This document shows positions 957-16,477 of a DNA stretch of 42,226 nucleotides, in pieces. The stretch's first letter is position 1, and each line of letters begins with the position of its first letter. This DNA is from Acidobacteriota bacterium. GTDB lineage: Bacteria > Acidobacteriota > Terriglobia > Acidiferrales > UBA7541. The stretch spans positions 1 to 42,226 of the forward strand of contig QHZB01000060.1 of the NCBI GenBank assembly GCA_003224525.1, written 5' to 3'. A program made the translations under genes and the position numbers. The notes under the pieces are model-generated. The model made no database searches, was not told the origin of the DNA, and was given only the letters and a program-made list of their open reading frames with translations.

Positions 957-3015
957 ACGTCTTTCTCGGAAAGCCATCGTTTATGTTCGCCAGTCTAAGC
1001 CGAGTCAATTAATCCACAACCAGGAAAGCACACGCCTACAACTCAGTCTTGCAGATCGTGCCCGTGCACTGGGTTTCCAACGCATCGTCGTGGTGGACGA
1101 AGATCTGGGACGAACAGGTTCGGGTTTGGTCGATCGCCCCGGTTTTCAACGCTTGGTCGCGGAAGGATGTAGTGGCGAAGTGGGTGCGGTATTTTGTGTG
1201 GAGGCATCGCGATTAGCACGCAACGGTCGTGACTGGCATCATCTGATCGACCTCTGCGGAATGGTCCGCGCCGTGGTGGTGGATCTCGACGGTGTTTACG
1301 ATCCAACTCTAACCAATGATCGCCTGCTGCTAGGAATGAAAGGGGCGATCAGTGAATTCGAGTTGAATCTGTTTCGACAGCGCTCAAGCGAAGCGATTCT
1401 TCAGAAAGCCCGCCGTGGCGAACTCCAAATTCTGATGCCCGTCGGTTTCTGTTGGGCACCAAGCGGGCGAATCGAAAAAGATCCCGATCAGCGTGTGCAG
1501 CAGGCCATCCAGTTGGTGTTTCGCAAAATGACCGAGTTGGGTAGCGTACGCCAAGTTCTGGTGTGGTTTCTACAAGAGAGCATTGCGCTGCCGTCATTTC
1601 CTCATGACTCGGTCGAGCGCAGGATGATTTGGAAATTGCCCGGATACGCATCTCTACACTCGATGCTGACCAATCCGATCTATGCCGGCGCCTATGTCTA
1701 CGGTAGGAGGGAAACAAGGACGAAGATCGTGGACGACCGTGCCCGCAAATCTGCGGGCCATCGCAAGCCGCAAAGCGAATGGAAGGTCTTGATCAAGGAC
1801 CATCATCCCAGTTACCTTTCCTGGGAAGAGTACGAACGAAATCAATCGATGATCACTGCCAACGGTTACATGATGAACTCCGGCGCAGAGCGCAAAGCCG
1901 GCCGTGGCGGCCGAGCGCTGTTTTCGGGGCTTCTTCGGTGCCATCGTTGCGGACGAATGATGCAAGTCAATTACCCCGGCCCTGTCGTCCGCTATGTTTG
2001 CAATTCTGCCCGCTCCCAGTACGGGGATAAAATGTGCATTTCCTTTGGTGGCTGGCGCGTAGATGAGGTGGTGTCTAAGGAGGTGTTAGCTGCGGTCAGT
2101 GGAAATGCGATCACGGCAGCCTTGGAAGCGGCAGAGCAAATGCAGCAGAAGCGACAAGATCTACGCAAGGCGATCGAGATGGAGCTTGAGCAGGCTCGCT
2201 ACGAAGCACGTTTGGCAGCTCGGCGCTACGAATCCGTAGATCCGGAACAGCGGTTGGTGGCCGCAGAATTGGAGGCTCGCTGGAATACGGTCTTGCAAAA
2301 AACGAAGGAGCTCGAAAACAAATTGCGCGAGTCTGACGACCAGAGTCAATCGGCGCCGGTGCCGAATACGCAAGTTCTCTTGAGTTTGGCGCAAGATCTT
2401 CCGGCGATTTGGAACTCGCCTTCTACTGACATGCGACTGAAGCAGCGGATCGTCCGGATTCTGATCCGCGAAATCATTGCCGACGTAGACGAGAAGAGCC
2501 GCGAAGTTGTTCTTGTAATTCACTGGGCTGGTGGGCGTCATTCCGAACTGCGTGTGAAGAAAAGTGAGACGGGTAGGAGCCGCCGCTGCACGGATTCCGA
2601 TGCGATCGAAGTCATTCGACAGATGGCTCCGAACTTTAACGACCAGCAGATCGCAGGCACGCTGAACCGGCTCAGGCTGCGCACAGGCGTGGGTAACACG
2701 TGGACCGTGAGTCGAGTTCACTCGGCTCGTTTCTATTACCACCTGCCAGTCTTTGCTCCGAATGATCGGTCCAGCGAAGTAACTCTAGAGGAGGCCGCGG
2801 AACGCCTCAATGTGAACCAATCGATTGTACGACGCATGATCGAAGAGAAGATGCTGCCAGCGCGTCAGGTGGTGGTTTGTGCGCCATGGCAGATTCCGGT
2901 GGAGGCATTGGATTCGGAAACGATTCGCAAACGAGCTACCGATTTCAAAAATCAAGCGCGACTTCCACGACGTCACAGTTGCGAAGGGCAGGAATCAATG
3001 TTTTCAGAGAGATAG
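766..3015 (+). CDS. Large serine recombinase (resolvase/recombinase/zinc-ribbon) with an N-terminal extension
   Basis: Site-specific DNA recombinase of 749 residues, inferred to move the element it sits in. The resolvase domain starts near residue 68, with catalytic Ser77 in YVRQSKPS and the Arg-rich motif EASRLARN (about 146-153). The recombinase domain follows (LTNPIYAGAYVYGR, about 301-314), then a zinc ribbon with Cys392, Cys395, Cys412 and Cys424, a coiled coil (about 450-530) and a C-terminal helix-turn-helix-like stretch (VTLEEAAERLNV, about 690). Two starts have good ribosome sites: ATG 766 (AAGGAGG upstream) and ATG 934 (GGAGGAG upstream, residue 57). Homologues usually begin at the second, and residues 1-56 look like the separate small ORF often found upstream, here in frame with no stop between. 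Confidence 0.9.
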   Translation: MKRSVKQLSPQMNLPLDNVPHAENPEEQCEDLTAALMELLISAAEEKHEQPGNGGEMNPKLTPERLSRKAIVYVRQSKPSQLIHNQESTRLQLSLADRARALGFQRIVVVDEDLGRTGSGLVDRPGFQRLVAEGCSGEVGAVFCVEASRLARNGRDWHHLIDLCGMVRAVVVDLDGVYDPTLTNDRLLLGMKGAISEFELNLFRQRSSEAILQKARRGELQILMPVGFCWAPSGRIEKDPDQRVQQAIQLVFRKMTELGSVRQVLVWFLQESIALPSFPHDSVERRMIWKLPGYASLHSMLTNPIYAGAYVYGRRETRTKIVDDRARKSAGHRKPQSEWKVLIKDHHPSYLSWEEYERNQSMITANGYMMNSGAERKAGRGGRALFSGLLRCHRCGRMMQVNYPGPVVRYVCNSARSQYGDKMCISFGGWRVDEVVSKEVLAAVSGNAITAALEAAEQMQQKRQDLRKAIEMELEQARYEARLAARRYESVDPEQRLVAAELEARWNTVLQKTKELENKLRESDDQSQSAPVPNTQVLLSLAQDLPAIWNSPSTDMRLKQRIVRILIREIIADVDEKSREVVLVIHWAGGRHSELRVKKSETGRSRRCTDSDAIEVIRQMAPNFNDQQIAGTLNRLRLRTGVGNTWTVSRVHSARFYYHLPVFAPNDRSSEVTLEEAAERLNVNQSIVRRMIEEKMLPARQVVVCAPWQIPVEALDSETIRKRATDFKNQARLPRRHSCEGQESMFSER

Positions 3016-11559: not shown

Positions 11560-12645
11560 TTACCAACCGAAGATTTTCCCCGCGCCGTGTACCAAAGCGA
11601 GAGTGAAGCCCGCGATCACCACTTCGCCAATCGCTCCGACCGCGAACGGGCGGAGGCCCTGCTTGCGCATATCGCTGAAATTGGTGCGCAGCCCGACCCC
11701 CGCGAAAGTGAGCAGAAACGCCCAGCGCGAGAGATTGGCGAGCGCTCCCACCTGATCCTTGTTGAAGAAGTGGTAGGTCGCAAGGACCGAAATCAGCAGA
11801 AAGCCGAGAACGAACTTCGGGAATTTCTGCCACAGGAATGCCGCCTTGTTCCCTACTGCCTGCGCCTGTCCTTTACCGGCCCAATAAATGGCGTAGCCGA
11901 GAACGACGAATCCGATCATGGCGTTGCGCGTGGACTTGACGAGCACGGCGAGTTTTCCGGCAGCGTCGGAGTACAGCGCCCCCGCGGCGGTAGCCTCCGC
12001 TGTATTGTCCACGCCGAGGCCGGCCCACAAGCCGTACACGCGGTCGCTCAGATGGAGAAAGTGCCCGATTACCGGAAACGTAAAAAGAGCCAGAGCGCCG
12101 AGAGCGAGAATCGCCGCGATGGAAAAGGAAGAATCTTCATCGTCGGCTTCAATGGCCCCTTTTGTGGCGATGATGGCGCTCACTCCGCAGACGGCCGAGC
12201 CAACGGCAAGAAGCGTCGTGAGTTTGGGCTTGAGCTTGAACTGGCGGCCGAGAAAGGTCATGAACGCGAGAGAACCGGCGATTTCGATGGCCACGAGAAC
12301 GAGGCTCACGCCGCCGAGTTTCAAAATGTCGCCGAGCAGAAAGCGCGCCCCGAGCAAAACAATGCCGGCTTTGAGCCAGAATTCGTAGGTGGCCACGCCG
12401 GTACGGAAAATTTCCGGGACTCCCACTGTGTTTGAGATCACCAGGCCAAGAATGATGGCCCATAGCACGTATTCAATATTCGGAAACGTCCAGTGACGGG
12501 CCTTGGCGTAGGCGCCGACGTTTTGCTCCAGCAGTTTGCCCGCATAGCCGACGGCGGCGAGCAGCAGAACTCCAGGGATGACGCGCAGAAATCGCAGCGC
12601 CGCCTGCACTGGCTGAACCTGAGGAACGGTGATTACATCAGCCAT
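11560..12645 (-). CDS. YeiH family (UPF0324) putative sulfate exporter
   Basis: Integral membrane protein of 361 residues with about ten hydrophobic spans. Family landmarks are RVIPGVLLLAAVGYAGKLL, AIILGLVISNTVG, KAGIVLLGARFLLGDI, GSAVCGVSAIIATKGAI, GVDNTAEATAAGALYSD and AFLLTFAGVGLRTNFSDM. The family is annotated as putative sulfate exporter, without a firmly proven substrate. It is the last gene of the operon reductase, cobA, 43-residue protein, YeiH, and 30 bp follow the stop of the preceding small gene. This context favours a sulfur oxyanion (sulfite or sulfate) or a linked sulfur compound as substrate, but that is inference. It converges with mdh. Confidence 0.9.
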   Translation of the reverse strand: MADVITVPQVQPVQAALRFLRVIPGVLLLAAVGYAGKLLEQNVGAYAKARHWTFPNIEYVLWAIILGLVISNTVGVPEIFRTGVATYEFWLKAGIVLLGARFLLGDILKLGGVSLVLVAIEIAGSLAFMTFLGRQFKLKPKLTTLLAVGSAVCGVSAIIATKGAIEADDEDSSFSIAAILALGALALFTFPVIGHFLHLSDRVYGLWAGLGVDNTAEATAAGALYSDAAGKLAVLVKSTRNAMIGFVVLGYAIYWAGKGQAQAVGNKAAFLWQKFPKFVLGFLLISVLATYHFFNKDQVGALANLSRWAFLLTFAGVGLRTNFSDMRKQGLRPFAVGAIGEVVIAGFTLALVHGAGKIFGW

Positions 12646-12825: not shown

Positions 12826-13599
12826 TTAGCTCACCGATGTTTGTTGCAAATCCGGATCTTTCCGATTCGTGTCCCAGAACTGCGCGCTGAGATCCTCAAT
12901 CTCGTGCGACGCCACGCGGCCGACAATCAACAGGGCCGGAGCCGGGAGTTTTTCTTCGCTGGCCAGTCTGGCGACATTGGACCAGCGCACTTGCTGTTGG
13001 GGACCAGTTGCCCGAGAGACAATCACGCACGGAAGGTTCGCCGGAAGCCCGCCTCCGAGCAGTCGCTCTGAAACCTCGGCATAATCTGCGCCGGGCATGT
13101 ACAGAACCAGCGTGGTTGTGCTCGTGACGCAACCCCAATCCATCGCGCTGCCGTCGATTCCGCGCGAGAACGTAGTAAGTAGAATTTGCGAGGCCACCCG
13201 GCGATCGGTGAGCGAGATTCCCGCGGCCGCCGCGGCTCCGAGTGCGGCGCTGATGCCCGGAACGATTTCATATGCAATTCCGGCTCTACGAAGGGCTTCG
13301 ATTTCTTCTCCAGCGCGCCCAAAAATCGTTGGATCGCCGCCTTTCAGCCGGACAACTTCCGGGCGCCTCCGTCCATGCGAAACCAGGAGTGCGTTGATTT
13401 CATCCTGGGCAAGGAGTTTGTGGCCAGCGCGCTTGCCCACGTTAATGATCTCGGCAGCGGGCGAAATCACCGCCAAAACAGCATCGCTGACCAGAGCATC
13501 GTGAAGGACAACGTCGGCACGAGCGAGCAGGCGTGCCGCTTTCAAGGTGAGCAGCTCGGGATCACCAGGCCCAGCGCCAATGAGATAAACTTTGCCCAT
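12826..13599 (-). CDS. cobA: Uroporphyrinogen-III C-methyltransferase
   Basis: S-adenosylmethionine-dependent methylation of uroporphyrinogen III to precorrin-2, the precursor of siroheme; 257 residues. Motifs: VYLIGAGPGDPELLTLKAARLL (SAM-binding P-loop), DVVLHDALVS, VVRLKGGDPTIFGRAGEE, YEIVPGISAALGAAAAAGISLTDR, and the C-terminal PALLIVGRV. The reductase stop codon TGA overlaps this ATG (TGATG), implying translational coupling. There is no fused dehydrogenase/ferrochelatase domain, so oxidation and iron insertion must be done by other proteins. The context is clear: it supplies cofactor for the neighbouring siroheme enzyme. Confidence 0.93.
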   Translation of the reverse strand: MGKVYLIGAGPGDPELLTLKAARLLARADVVLHDALVSDAVLAVISPAAEIINVGKRAGHKLLAQDEINALLVSHGRRRPEVVRLKGGDPTIFGRAGEEIEALRRAGIAYEIVPGISAALGAAAAAGISLTDRRVASQILLTTFSRGIDGSAMDWGCVTSTTTLVLYMPGADYAEVSERLLGGGLPANLPCVIVSRATGPQQQVRWSNVARLASEEKLPAPALLIVGRVASHEIEDLSAQFWDTNRKDPDLQQTSVS

Positions 13600-15359
13600 C
13601 ACGCCGCGCACTCGCCGCGGCCCAGCTTTAGGGAATAAGTCTCTGTGTCTCCCCAGTCCACGAAGATATCCTCGGAGGTGGCTGTCACCTCCGCCAAGGA
13701 GAGCAGCCGCTCTTTGATGGTCTTGTCCGGCGTGCGCGCCACCCACGCGGTAAATGTTTCGGCAGCCTGGCGGTCCTGCTGATAGAAACTCAGGAGCTCT
13801 CGAATAATCGCGGGGATGGGCCGGGCAGGCACAGCCATGATCTGGCGCGCGAAGCGCACCCCGTCGGCGTTCACTTTGCCGCCGAGCAAAAGCTGATAGT
13901 ACGGGGCCTGTTGTTCGCCAACCTTCCTGACGTTGCCGTAAAAACCGATATCGGCAATGTGATGATGCCCGCAGGAATTGGGGCAGCCGCTGATTTTGAT
14001 GCGCAACTTTTGGATTTCTGGATCGGTGTAATCGTTCAGCTCGCGCGAAAGAACTTCGGCCAGCGTAAGAGAGCGCGTAATCCCCAGATTGCAGGTGGTG
14101 GCTCCCGGGCATCCCGTGACGTCGGAAATAGTGCGCGCTCCGGCCGTGGCCAAATCAAGTGCGCGCAGTTCGTCGTAGATCGCGCGCACACGGTCAAAAG
14201 GAACCCACGGGATGACCAGATCCTGATTGACGGCAATGCGCACGCCGGTCAGATTGTTCTTTTCCAGAACGTCTGCGAGGCCGCGCATTTGGTCGCTGTG
14301 CAACGTTCCGGCAGAAAGCTTGACCCACACCCCGCCGTATCCGGCCTGGCGCTGAAACATCAGATTGTGCTCGGCCCAGCGGTCGTATTCAGGATCCGTT
14401 TGCGTACCAGCCGTTGAAAGAGATAAAGGGGACGGCGCGATCGTAACCAGCGACGGCTTGATAAGGGAAGGCACGGTAAATGTCTCCGCCGGAGCCTGCG
14501 AGACCTTGCGCTTTTCGGCAACCAGGCGGCGTAACTCCTCGATGCCTTTTGCGCGCAAGACGAATTTCAATCGCGCCATGAGCTTGTTCTTGCGGTTCCC
14601 CGTTTCCGTGAAAACCCGCAGGACGGCTTCGATGGTGGGAAGCAGCTCCTCTTCCGGCAGAAAATCCGTGAGAACCGCTGCCTCCGTGGGCAAACTTCCC
14701 AGACCGCCGCCGACGAGAACTTTGAAGCCACGATGCGACGTGCCGTTGTTGCCACGGACTTGCGCGATGAGGCCGACGTCGTGGATGCCGGCAACCGCGC
14801 AATCGCCGTCGTTTTCGCAGCCGGAGAGGGCGATCTTGAACTTGCGCGGCAAGTCGTGAAAATCGGGATGGCGCAGGAGGTATCGCGAGACGCCCAAAGC
14901 GTAGGGGGTGACGTCGAACGCTTCGCCGGGGCAAATTCCCGCCAACGGGCAAGCCGTGACGTTGCGCACGGTGTTACCGCAAGCCTCGCGCGTGGTCAGG
15001 CCCGCATCGGCGAGCAAGCGCATGGCGGCGCCCACATTTTCGAGTTTCACGAAATGGAACTGAATGTTTTCGCGCGTGGTGAGGTGGCCGCGGTCAGTCG
15101 AGTATTCGTCGGCAATAACCCCCAGGACGCGAAGCTGCGCGGGTGTGAGCACCCCCGCAGCGATCTTGACGCGCAGCATTTGGAAGCCCGGCTGCCGCTG
15201 GCCATAGGTGCCGTGTTTCAGGCGGAAAGGACGGAATTGTTCCGGCGTGATGGCGCCGCTTTGAAGTTCTTGGATGCGCTCTTCAAAACGGACGATCTCC
15301 GCTTCAATGGCTTCTCGACTGTGCCGTTCCTCGACTTCGGATAATGCTGCCACGATCAT
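13599..15359 (-). CDS. Siroheme/[4Fe-4S] sulfite (or nitrite) reductase
   Basis: Six-electron reduction of sulfite to sulfide (or nitrite to ammonium) with reduced ferredoxin; 586 residues. Two pseudo-symmetric halves are visible: ferrodoxin-like RLKHGTYGQRQPGFQMLRVK and LTTRENIQFHFV in the first, and HNLMFQRQAGYGGVWVKL in the second. The cluster/siroheme Cys are C-x5-C in GCPGATTCNLG and C-x3-C in GCPNSCGHHH. A start at ATG 15359 has AGGAG nine bases upstream. The preceding leader with a Cys-rich peptide and a terminator, and the linked cobA and YeiH, favour sulfite as the physiological substrate. Sequence alone does not exclude nitrite. Confidence 0.92.
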   Translation of the reverse strand: MIVAALSEVEERHSREAIEAEIVRFEERIQELQSGAITPEQFRPFRLKHGTYGQRQPGFQMLRVKIAAGVLTPAQLRVLGVIADEYSTDRGHLTTRENIQFHFVKLENVGAAMRLLADAGLTTREACGNTVRNVTACPLAGICPGEAFDVTPYALGVSRYLLRHPDFHDLPRKFKIALSGCENDGDCAVAGIHDVGLIAQVRGNNGTSHRGFKVLVGGGLGSLPTEAAVLTDFLPEEELLPTIEAVLRVFTETGNRKNKLMARLKFVLRAKGIEELRRLVAEKRKVSQAPAETFTVPSLIKPSLVTIAPSPLSLSTAGTQTDPEYDRWAEHNLMFQRQAGYGGVWVKLSAGTLHSDQMRGLADVLEKNNLTGVRIAVNQDLVIPWVPFDRVRAIYDELRALDLATAGARTISDVTGCPGATTCNLGITRSLTLAEVLSRELNDYTDPEIQKLRIKISGCPNSCGHHHIADIGFYGNVRKVGEQQAPYYQLLLGGKVNADGVRFARQIMAVPARPIPAIIRELLSFYQQDRQAAETFTAWVARTPDKTIKERLLSLAEVTATSEDIFVDWGDTETYSLKLGRGECAA

Positions 15360-15403
15360 GATTCTTGGCTCCTAGGGTTTCGATCTATGAAATATCCCCA
15401 ATC

Positions 15404-15448
15404 CAAAAGAAAAAGCCCACATAACCAGGCTCTCTGGCATGTGGGCTT
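15404..15448 (-). terminator. Intrinsic terminator (attenuator) ahead of the reductase
   Basis: Minus-strand stem AAGCCCACAT (15448-15439) pairs perfectly with ATGTGGGCTT (15422-15413), with a smaller CCAG/CTGG stem in the loop. TTTTTCTTTT follows (15413-15404). It stands 24 bases after the leader-peptide stop and 45 before the reductase start, so transcripts must read through it to express the operon. Confidence 0.88.
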
Positions 15449-15472
15449 CGGAACTTTATGATTCAGCTACCG

Positions 15473-15568
15473 CTAAGTCCGGAGACTCCTCTGGCCAGAG
15501 ATGAGTGTCGTGCAACACGCAGCGTTGCACGTGCAGGGACAACACATCGTCTGGCAACAGATCTTCAT
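15473..15568 (-). CDS. Cysteine-rich leader peptide (31 codons)
   Basis: Frame from ATG 15568 to TAG 15473. It begins MKICCQTMCCPCTC and has Cys at 4, 5, 9, 10, 12, 14, 18 and 19: eight in the first 19 codons, none afterward. An internal ATG (15547) would give 24 codons with six Cys. Neither start has a Shine-Dalgarno site. The promoter -10 ends only eight bases before ATG 15568, so the mRNA would be leaderless or nearly so. The Cys block overlaps a perfect 7-bp hairpin (GTGCAAC/GTTGCAC), and the terminator follows the stop. This layout is what a ribosome-mediated attenuator sensing Cys-tRNA would need. Expression is inferred, not shown. Confidence 0.8.
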   Translation of the reverse strand: MKICCQTMCCPCTCNAACCTTLISGQRSLRT

Positions 15569-15576
15569 CAAACTAA

Positions 15577-15605
15577 AGGATACTTTCCCGACCACCCTTT
15601 GTCAA
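15577..15605 (-). promoter_or_regulatory. Sigma70-type promoter of the sulfur operon
   Basis: Minus strand: perfect TTGACA (15605-15600), 17-base spacer, TATCCT (15582-15577, five of six consensus bases). The expected start is at about 15570-15568, at or next to the leader-peptide ATG. Confidence 0.85.
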
Positions 15606-15613
15606 AGGGTGGT
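15591..15613. promoter_or_regulatory. Perfect palindrome over the -35 box (candidate operator)
   Basis: Arms ACCACCCTTTG and CAAAGGGTGGT are 11 bp each with a single central base. The -35 hexamer lies at the centre, so a dimeric protein bound here would compete with RNA polymerase. The regulator is unknown. If transcribed from an upstream promoter it would also form a strong hairpin. Confidence 0.65.
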
Positions 15614-15632
15614 CGTGCTAAAAATTAGATGC

Positions 15633-15661
15633 ATCATACTCAAAAAAGTAATCCACGGCAA
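15633..15661 (-). promoter_or_regulatory. Possible second, upstream promoter
   Basis: Minus strand TTGCCG (15661-15656), 17-base spacer, TATGAT (15638-15633). A transcript from here would contain the palindrome as a hairpin before the leader peptide. Weaker than the downstream promoter. Confidence 0.35.
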
Positions 15662-15679: not shown

Positions 15680-16477
15680 TTATTGCGGCTTTGCGGCTGC
15701 CAGTCCGATTAGCGTGGCGGTCTTGATGGAGTCCAGCTTGGGCCAGCCTTTGTCCAGATAGGGCTTGCCCAGCTTGGAGATTTGATCCTGGTCAGGACCG
15801 CTGTTGCTCGCATACTGATCGTACAGCATGTCTACCACCTTCATTCCCTGCGCATCCACCACACCAAAAGGTGAGAAGCCTTGCCGGTCGAGCCCCGCAT
15901 TGTCCGCTAAATTGATGAAAATTTGCGTCGAGCGGGTATTGGGCATGCTCGTTTTCGCGTACGTCACGTACCCGCGCTTGTTGGACTGCGTCACCGGCTC
16001 GTCTTGGATATCAGCCTTTTCCCACGCCGCTGAAACCGGTGGATAAGCGCTGATGCCAAACTGAACTATGAAGGCGGGCACCACGCGGAAGAAGCTGGCG
16101 TTGTCATAGAAGTGGTGCTTCACCAGATTGTAGAAGCGATCGGCGCCGATCGGAGCCCAGGCGCGATGGACGGTCACAACAAAATCTCCGCGCGTGGTGG
16201 TGAACTTCACCTGAAACGTGTCCGGCGCTTTGTCCTTGAGGAGCGCCGCGCGAAGAAGTGCGCGGTCGTAACCAGAGCGTGGTGCGGGCGCAGGTGCGCT
16301 TGCCGTTGCCTCCGGCTGCGCTGCTACGGCCGCTGGCGGTTCTGCCTTTGGAGCAGCCGTGGCCGCGGCCTTGGGTTGTTCCGGCGGTGGCGTTTCAGCA
16401 GTCTGCTCTTTCGCCTTACAGCCGAATAACAGCGTTCCCATTGCCACAGCCGTGACAAACCACTTTACGCGTTTCAT
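15680..16477 (-). CDS. Lipoprotein peptidyl-prolyl cis-trans isomerase (cyclophilin type)
   Basis: Prolyl isomerase that would help extracytoplasmic folding; 265 residues. A lipoprotein signal ends in LLFG-Cys20. An Ala/Pro/Glu-rich linker (about 25-68) leads to the cyclophilin domain (about 88-255). Motifs: FTTTRGDFVVTVHRAWAP, DRFYNLVKHHFYDNASFFRVVPAFIVQFG, TQIFINLADNAGLDRQGFSPFG. The Phe/Arg pair of the active site (FFRV) and the FINL segment are kept. A long linker placing the domain away from the membrane is common in acidobacterial lipoproteins. M19 dipeptidase lies upstream, 48 bp away, on the same strand, so co-transcription is likely. Confidence 0.9.
   Translation of the reverse strand: MKRVKWFVTAVAMGTLLFGCKAKEQTAETPPPEQPKAAATAAPKAEPPAAVAAQPEATASAPAPAPRSGYDRALLRAALLKDKAPDTFQVKFTTTRGDFVVTVHRAWAPIGADRFYNLVKHHFYDNASFFRVVPAFIVQFGISAYPPVSAAWEKADIQDEPVTQSNKRGYVTYAKTSMPNTRSTQIFINLADNAGLDRQGFSPFGVVDAQGMKVVDMLYDQYASNSGPDQDQISKLGKPYLDKGWPKLDSIKTATLIGLAAAKPQ

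Follow-up and report, generated by a model that had tools for sequence, protein, structure and literature searches.

A candidate cysteine attenuator with a probably leaderless leader peptide upstream of a sulfite-reductase operon in Acidobacteriota

INTRODUCTION

Attenuators of the trp, his and thr type consist of a translated leader with sensor codons and a set of alternative RNA pairings, i.e. a protector (1:2), an antiterminator (2:3) and an intrinsic terminator (3:4). The term ribosome-mediated transcription attenuator is used here as in the accessible parts of PMC1262725 and PMC8079986. For cysteine, leader peptides with Cys runs near the stop codon have been reported from Mycobacterium, P. 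acnes and B. longum, which according to the accessible text lack conserved terminator hairpins (Seliverstov 2005, PMC1262725). Mycobacterial Cys-rich leaderless upstream ORFs at cysA2 and nirA were proposed, in the portion of the paper available, as the first candidates for Cys-directed attenuation (Shell 2015, PMC4633059), and the effect of mycobacterial polycysteine leaderless ORFs is placed at the level of translation (Canestrari 2020, as summarised in the accessible parts of PMC9031893 and PMC13236596). In the accessible parts of the respective papers, eight leader peptides are described in S. lividans, several of them leaderless and with terminators (PMC8079986), trpL of S. meliloti starts at its own AUG (PMC7298713), and leaderless initiation is given for the ilvBNC attenuator of C. 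glutamicum (PMC11857589). Leaderless attenuators and Cys leader peptides are already known from actinobacteria. For Acidobacteria, almost no predicted attenuator has an associated function, as far as the accessible text goes (Naville and Gautheret 2010, PMC2965389). In the open-licence literature that we searched, which leaves most subscription papers outside, we found neither a complete terminator-type Cys attenuator nor an attenuator like the present one in Acidobacteria.

Here we describe a leader upstream of an acidobacterial siroheme-reductase operon that, judged from its sequence and that of its relatives, is very probably a ribosome-mediated transcription attenuator sensing charged Cys-tRNA. 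As far as our search extends, a terminator-type Cys attenuator that is spread through an acidobacterial class, and whose common layout is combined with different sensor codons, is new. An earlier note on this DNA had called the leaderless peptide unusual for such a mechanism. This was too strong, as leaderless leader peptides have been described in S. meliloti, S. lividans and mycobacteria.

RESULTS AND DISCUSSION

Layout of the leader and comparison with known systems

The window, i.e. the whole stretch of DNA that we analysed, comprises 42,226 nt of the Acidobacteriota bacterium contig QHZB01000060.1 (GCA_003224525.1, positions 1 to 42,226 of the forward strand). On the minus strand, where all features of the window given below are located, the leader sits between a peptidyl-prolyl isomerase gene (15680-16477) and the siroheme-reductase operon. 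The first gene of the latter, sir (13599-15359), encodes a sulfite/nitrite reductase of the NirA/Sir type that is recognised by both NirA and sulfite-reductase models, with scores below their curated cut-offs. It is followed by a uroporphyrinogen-III C-methyltransferase gene of the operon (12826-13623, profile match, coordinates as cut for the search) and by a gene for a YeiH-type putative sulfate/sulfite exporter (11560-12645, profile match below the curated cut-off).

The promoter of the leader has the -35 hexamer TTGACA (15600-15605) and, after a spacer of 17 nt, the -10 hexamer TATCCT (15577-15582), which lies 8 nt 5' of an ATG, a spacing kept in relatives. The leader ORF MKICCQTMCCPCTCNAACCTTLISGQRSLRT (15473-15568, ATG at 15568) has 31 codons and ends with TAG (15475-15473); its AUG is not preceded by a Shine-Dalgarno sequence. 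Cys codons are found at positions 4, 5, 9, 10, 12, 14, 18 and 19 and nowhere later, so that the sensor stretch covers 15512-15559. This Cys content exceeds chance: with Cys as frequent as in nine ORFs of the window, the probability of at least 8 Cys in 31 codons is ~6e-9 (uncorrected for the number of frames). The ORF is followed, 24 nt past its stop, by a terminator with a perfect 10-bp stem, made up of the 5' arm AAGCCCACAT (15448-15439) and the 3' arm ATGTGGGCTT (15422-15413), and a U-run (15414-15405). All these elements, from the promoter to the terminator, had been proposed in the earlier note and were confirmed when we cut them again by coordinate. The reductase gene has its own Shine-Dalgarno sequence, AGGAG (15369-15373), 3' of the terminator. 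In a promoter scan the leader promoter scores 10/12, with three promoter-like sites in a 1.2-kb stretch compared to 0.4 expected. A terminator scan reports the leader hairpin in a shifted register, with two candidates compared to 1.2 by chance; since this count is near chance, the scan alone is little proof.

Four RNA segments can be assigned. Segment 1 (GCCAGA, 15550-15555, codons 5-6), whose helix goes on with GATG (15548-15545), pairs with UCUGGC at codons 24-25 in segment 2 (CATCTCTGGC, 15494-15503; CAUCUCUGGC, codons 22-25, in the alignments). Segment 2 can pair either with segment 1 as protector or with segment 3 (GCCAGAGA, 15431-15438, ascending arm and loop of the terminator) as antiterminator; segment 3 was assigned from the sequence and from pairing tests. 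Just past the last Cys codons, the complementarity that had been claimed between TCTCTGGC (15501-15494) and GCCAGAGA (15438-15431) in the arm and loop of the terminator is indeed present. Sequence and folding give an inner antiterminator helix, in which an arm overlapping the stop codon (TCTCCGGACTT, 15475-15485) pairs with AAGTTCCGAAG (15446-15456). Segment 4 reads CUGG...GUGGG in the alignments of the genus leaders. The earlier set of pairings thus held for the antiterminator and the terminator, and had overlooked the 1:2 protector hairpin; with segment 1 the classical 1:2 / 2:3 / 3:4 set is complete.

With the trp/his/thr-type attenuators this leader shares the ORF with sensor codons, the terminator, an antiterminator exclusive with it and a protector, the last being individually weak in half of 68 leaders (see below). 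It differs from them in that it senses Cys, has no Shine-Dalgarno sequence, starts next to its promoter, and has both segments 1 and 2 in the coding frame, the former at codons 5-6 and the latter 5' of the stop. A Cys-rich short ORF before sulfur genes, including nirA, is common to the mycobacterial and actinobacterial Cys leaders and to the present one, and a leaderless start is known in mycobacteria. However, the actinobacterial Cys runs lie near the stop, whereas the Cys codons in leaders of the present type end 12-13 codons before it (at codon 19 of 31 in the window), and a conserved terminator and antiterminator are found here in contrast to the translation-level effect without a conserved terminator hairpin there. 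Judged by sequence, the window leader is therefore outside the mycobacterial group as described in the accessible part of PMC1262725. In the leaderless attenuators of S. lividans and S. meliloti, a leader peptide is translated from an AUG at the 5' end and followed by a terminator, as is probable here, but with other sensors (Leu, Trp, Ile, Thr, Met, Ala); as far as the source is accessible, the eight S. lividans leaders include none for Cys. Searching Rfam 15 at the gathering score, we found no family at the window leader or at the leaders of 20 related loci; for the window leader at E up to 10, two weak sub-threshold hits appeared, one to the terminator stem and one to an inverted repeat.

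Conservation within the genus

We searched for the reductase protein in 36 genomes of the acidobacterial genus to which Ca. Acidiferrum also belongs, the window's own genome among them. A match was found in 31 genomes and the loci were retrieved for 30; read after reorientation, 29 of these 30 have kept the layout of the leader. Thus the in silico check that the earlier note had proposed for its attenuation reading, a Cys-rich frame and a terminator in homologous leaders, turned out in its favour. The 29 leaders have Cys-rich ORFs of 30-33 codons with in-frame length changes only, and their leader frame holds 6.6 Cys on average (compared to 1.1 in each other frame). The distance between leader stop and a TTCCGA motif is 11 to 21 nt (17-21 nt in all but one of the 29), and the terminator follows. 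The -35 hexamer is TTGACA or TTGACT, at 37-39 nt from the ATG, in 28 of the 28 leaders with enough upstream sequence (L030, at a contig edge, was left out of the promoter tests). The first four bases of segment 1 are invariant in all 29. Two pairings of the earlier note fared less evenly. The 7-bp hairpin of the Cys codons (GTGCAAC/GTTGCAC) is kept in part, with 73.8% of cells paired, and one of its pairs is broken in 21 of the 29 relatives; the pairing of CTCCGGA with TCCGAAG is conserved, as part only of a longer mismatched helix between UCUCCGGACUU, which runs into the leader stop codon in the genus alignments, and its partner AAGUUCCGAAG. The same leader precedes two groups of reductases, with 79-100% and 35-43% identity to that of the window.

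The 30th locus (L020, genome G016; 1161-1353, plus strand) carries a Cys-rich frame that has diverged, together with segments similar to those of the others, and matches a covariance model built from the Cys leaders (R1, see below) with E = 1.3e-4. Its promoter-like site is located much further upstream, so that it may have a longer 5' region and may not be leaderless; we left it out of the 29-leader alignment. A scan of named species genomes with the leader pattern gave 27 stretches, 23 of which come from records titled Acidobacteria, Terriglobia or Ca. Acidiferrum. A record titled Betaproteobacteria (L038, CAJCHZ010000039.1) carries the leader and is probably mislabelled. The hits in Noviherbaspirillum (L042), Brocadia (L055) and Chloroflexi (L056) lack the surroundings of the leader, and the best R1 match in their genomes is only E 0.82 and to the terminator part only; on both grounds we took them as chance.

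Start of the leader RNA

Start sites were compared in 103 leaders, taking the upstream-most in-frame ATG as leader start. Among the 102 with enough upstream sequence (29 of the set represent one orthologous leader and are thus non-independent), 52 show a promoter-like site of at least 8/12 within 60 nt 5' of the ATG. In 47 of these 52, the -10 ends 6-11 nt 5' of the ATG, compared to ~2% of shuffled sequences at 5-11 nt. Shine-Dalgarno matches 5' of the 102 leader starts are no better than in shuffles. Both the promoter spacing and the absent Shine-Dalgarno sequence fit a leaderless start.

A 12-bp perfect inverted repeat, CGACCACCCTTT-GAC-AAAGGGTGGTCG (15589-15615, minus strand), encloses the -35 hexamer of the window leader. 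Further upstream, the block GATTACTTTTTTGNNTNNNATGCATCTAA (15625-15653, minus strand) is conserved before many genus leaders and occurs once in the window's own genome, even with up to 3 mismatches allowed; it is a candidate for either a regulator site or an upstream promoter. In relatives the arms of the repeat change and their complementarity stays (native -12.21 compared to -9.06 for permuted partners, 0/20,000), with 8 of 28 leaders individually at p<0.05. Its mismatches lean to T/G (13 TG and 2 GT compared to 4 AC), i.e. to wobble pairs on the leader strand, as if it were an RNA hairpin. The repeat could be either an operator or a sign that the RNA of the same attenuator starts further upstream, is not leaderless and carries the repeat as a 5' hairpin. 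The kept complementarity, the direction of the mismatches and the conserved block just upstream all speak for the upstream start; the fixed distance of the -35 TTGACA and the -10 to the ATG, the family-wide position of the -10 described above and the weakness of the repeat in several NirA-type leaders speak against it, and we consider such a start unlikely.

Alternative folds, co-variation and proposed mechanism

The minimum-energy fold of the whole leader contains the 1:2 and 3:4 helices (-71 kcal/mol, z -5.6), while the stretch from segment 2 to segment 3 alone folds as antiterminator (-24.2, z -2.0). The terminator is conserved in the alignment of the 29 genus leaders, and the antiterminator is mutually exclusive with it. 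Across these leaders, the pairs of 1:2 and 3:4 form in 95.1% of cells, compared to 29-55% with slid partners, and the same values are obtained for the antiterminator pairs (95.1% compared to 29-55%). The mean energies are -27.0 (1:2), -25.4 (2:3) and -22.7 (3:4). Looking for compensatory changes in the 2:3 pairs of the 29 leaders we found none, the antiterminator core being invariant within the genus, and co-variation was therefore sought in more distant leaders. In 68 leaders (L094, to which the terminator pattern has no fit, was left out), native partners pair better than permuted ones both for 2:3 (-14.22 compared to -13.10) and for 1:2 (-15.35 compared to -12.97), each with 0/20,000 permutations and kinship ignored; the 39 leaders outside the reductase set alone gave -15.76 compared to -13.35 (0/20,000). 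Only 34 of the 68 individually beat 95% of shuffles for the 1:2 duplex. The alternative pairings are thus conserved and co-varying across the 68 leaders, as the covariation check of the earlier note had called for.

From these features we infer the following mechanism. The RNA would begin at the AUG or a few bases 5' of it, and a ribosome would translate the leader peptide. With enough Cys the ribosome would get to the stop codon and cover the inner antiterminator arm; segment 1 would pair with segment 2, the terminator would form, and transcription would stop short of the reductase gene. Under a shortage of Cys-tRNA, the ribosome would stall on the Cys codons 4-19 and keep segment 1 away, so that the free segment 2 could pair with the emerging segment 3, the terminator could not close, and the sulfite-reductase/siroheme operon would be transcribed.

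A switch at the level of translation, as in mycobacteria, would do without the hairpin: the speed of the ribosome on the Cys codons would alter access to the reductase start or the delivery of ribosomes. This reading draws on the Cys-rich leaderless ORFs before mycobacterial nirA and cysA2 (accessible part of PMC4633059), whose Cys-responsive action is called translation attenuation in the accessible part of PMC13236596. Nevertheless, the terminator with its U-run and the mutually exclusive antiterminator are conserved and co-varying, and between the terminator and the reductase start lies an AGGAG that serves the reductase gene itself. Both points make translation attenuation a distinctly improbable account of this leader.

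Ribosome position in a folding model

We modelled transcription attenuation in the 29 genus leaders in the state before the terminator 3' arm is made: RNA covered or passed by the ribosome was removed, and the hold of upstream RNA on the terminator 5' arm and segment 3 was computed. The mean antiterminator value is 0.74-0.75 with the A site at codons 2-19, then falls to 0.60 at codon 20, to 0.37 at codon 21 and to 0.15-0.33 from codon 22 to the stop; the window's own leader is an exception to this drop at codon 24 (0.56). Cys codons end at number 18 in 18 leaders and at 19 in seven; the last one is 17 or 21 in one leader each and 27 in a further two, so that three leaders (L025, L032, L033) have a Cys codon past the edge (21 or 27). 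In the model, the sensor codons thus mostly end where a stall begins to cover segment 2, and lengthening or shortening the footprint by 3 nt shifts this edge by a single codon. By folding, segment 2 is freed by a stall on the sensor codons but not by a ribosome that has come to the stop.

We also compared these two positions in 51 further Cys leaders. In 48 of them the antiterminator value is higher for a stall at the last sensor Cys than for a ribosome at the stop (mean 0.67 compared to 0.24), which is supportive and not decisive, since a later ribosome covers more RNA anyway. Counting against the model, the antiterminator value of the cut RNA is 0.67 even without any ribosome. At equilibrium the terminator is favoured in the full-length RNA wherever the ribosome stalls (0.88-1.0 across all states tested; 1.0 in the window), so that the switch would have to be kinetic. 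Known attenuators likewise switch kinetically.

A wider family with different putative sensor amino acids

At E <= 0.1, the covariance model R1 has matches in 67 of the 95 genomes searched from the order. Of 399 genomes sampled from the class, 99 match (E <= 0.001); a sample of 396 genomes from the phylum has 12 with a match, all inside the class. As R1 was built from Cys leaders, its yield leans towards these. We read 80 further hits, picked mostly by rank from longer lists; one of them (L147), which forms the end of a gene, was discarded as false. In 62 of the remaining 79 loci picked in this way, the gene behind the leader is a sulfur or Cys gene: sulfurtransferase/rhodanese (18), NirA (17), CysD (13), CysG (5), TauE (3), YeiH (2), and one each of CysK, a sulfate-binding protein, SsuA and a peroxiredoxin. 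One locus precedes an O-acetylhomoserine sulfhydrylase and has a Met/Cys frame. The other 16 belong to different pathways: ilvB (10), ilvD (1), aspartokinase (2), asd (2) and DAHP synthase (1). Gene labels come from short motifs, except that of L092 (profile); 22 proteins were checked with profiles and 20 fit, while L140, for which an ORF other than that with the motif was tested, and L149 had no match in the NCBIfam profile search.

In these 79 loci, taken as stated from longer lists, the sensor residues track the controlled pathway. The peptides called by our script among the loci read contain 2-10 Cys before sulfur or Cys genes (59/59) and 0-2 Cys before genes of other pathways (15/15); in two of the latter (L112 and L160) the script chose the wrong frame, and the right frames have no Cys. 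For L104, L137, L146, L154 and L156 it gave no ATG-started peptide; in a second listing of frames, those of L137 and L156 are rich in Cys and use other starts, and that of L146 is free of Cys. In L091, which is cut by Ns, the script finds 2 Cys and a longer frame 4. Ile/Val/Leu leaders precede ilvB (IVVVRLV) and ilvD (VGVLLLIGVSVVLLI), and the DAHP synthase leader shows SYWFRF (Tyr-Trp-Phe). Among the matches listed, the window's own genome has Cys leaders on C10 (the window leader), C388 and C486 (both cysD) and C117 (sulfurtransferase), as well as the aromatic leader on C227.

The exchange of sensor residues also bears on the possibility that a Cys-rich nascent peptide senses metal, sulfide or redox and arrests the ribosome, with Cys-tRNA not being the signal. 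Cys clusters can generally bind metals or be oxidised; but the number and spacing of Cys vary widely (3-10 per leader among the 29 genus leaders), and in related leaders the residues change with the pathway, so that we give nascent-peptide sensing very little credence. That the ORF makes a functional Cys-rich microprotein, the terminator being incidental, is hardly credible: its frame is conserved and varies in length by whole codons only (30-33 codons), but its C-terminal part is conserved as pairing RNA segments, and distant leaders alter residues yet keep the pairing.

Candidate Cys switches of this kind lie before sulfur genes in numerous genomes of a single acidobacterial class. They would mark the genes behind them, e.g. 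rhodaneses and the YeiH and TauE types, as part of Cys supply, which offers functional hints, and their common layout with different sensor codons opens a way to ask how attenuators shift specificity. When several leaders for other amino acids are aligned over their full length, their AUG, CCAGA, UCUGG and GCCAG terminator fall in line with the Cys model. Terminator-only R1 matches of 12-29 bits also occur, and an R1 search with the 5' part alone of two ilvB leaders gave no match for either. As these 5' parts do not score by themselves, one ancestor of the Cys and Ile/Val/Leu leaders is plausible only. We lean slightly towards the broader view that one modular leaderless scaffold (GCCAGA / UCUGGC / GCCAG terminator) runs much of the amino-acid control in the class, its shared core having been fitted with different sensor codons. 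Its Cys regulon would take in sulfate and sulfonate uptake, CysD, the reductase, siroheme, CysK and sulfite export, next to branches for Ile/Val/Leu, Thr and aromatic amino acids, all of them arisen by duplication from a common ancestor.

Thr- and Met-rich leaders with the stretches STSTTVSTRIT or TMTMTTMAM are found before aspartokinase (L145, 1523-1685; L160, 1517-1676) and recall the E. coli thr leader in their make-up. In the window's own genome, a 17-codon leader (MICVAHSYWFRFSGPPD) and a terminator precede DAHP synthase (L094, 2030-2161, minus strand; G000:C227:75029-75160), a candidate aromatic amino-acid attenuator by its sequence. Finally, a SAM riboswitch (L123, 2737-2850, plus strand; Rfam RF00162, 66.1 bits) is located ~1 kb from an asd leader, so that control by riboswitch and by attenuator appears to coexist in the same family of genomes.
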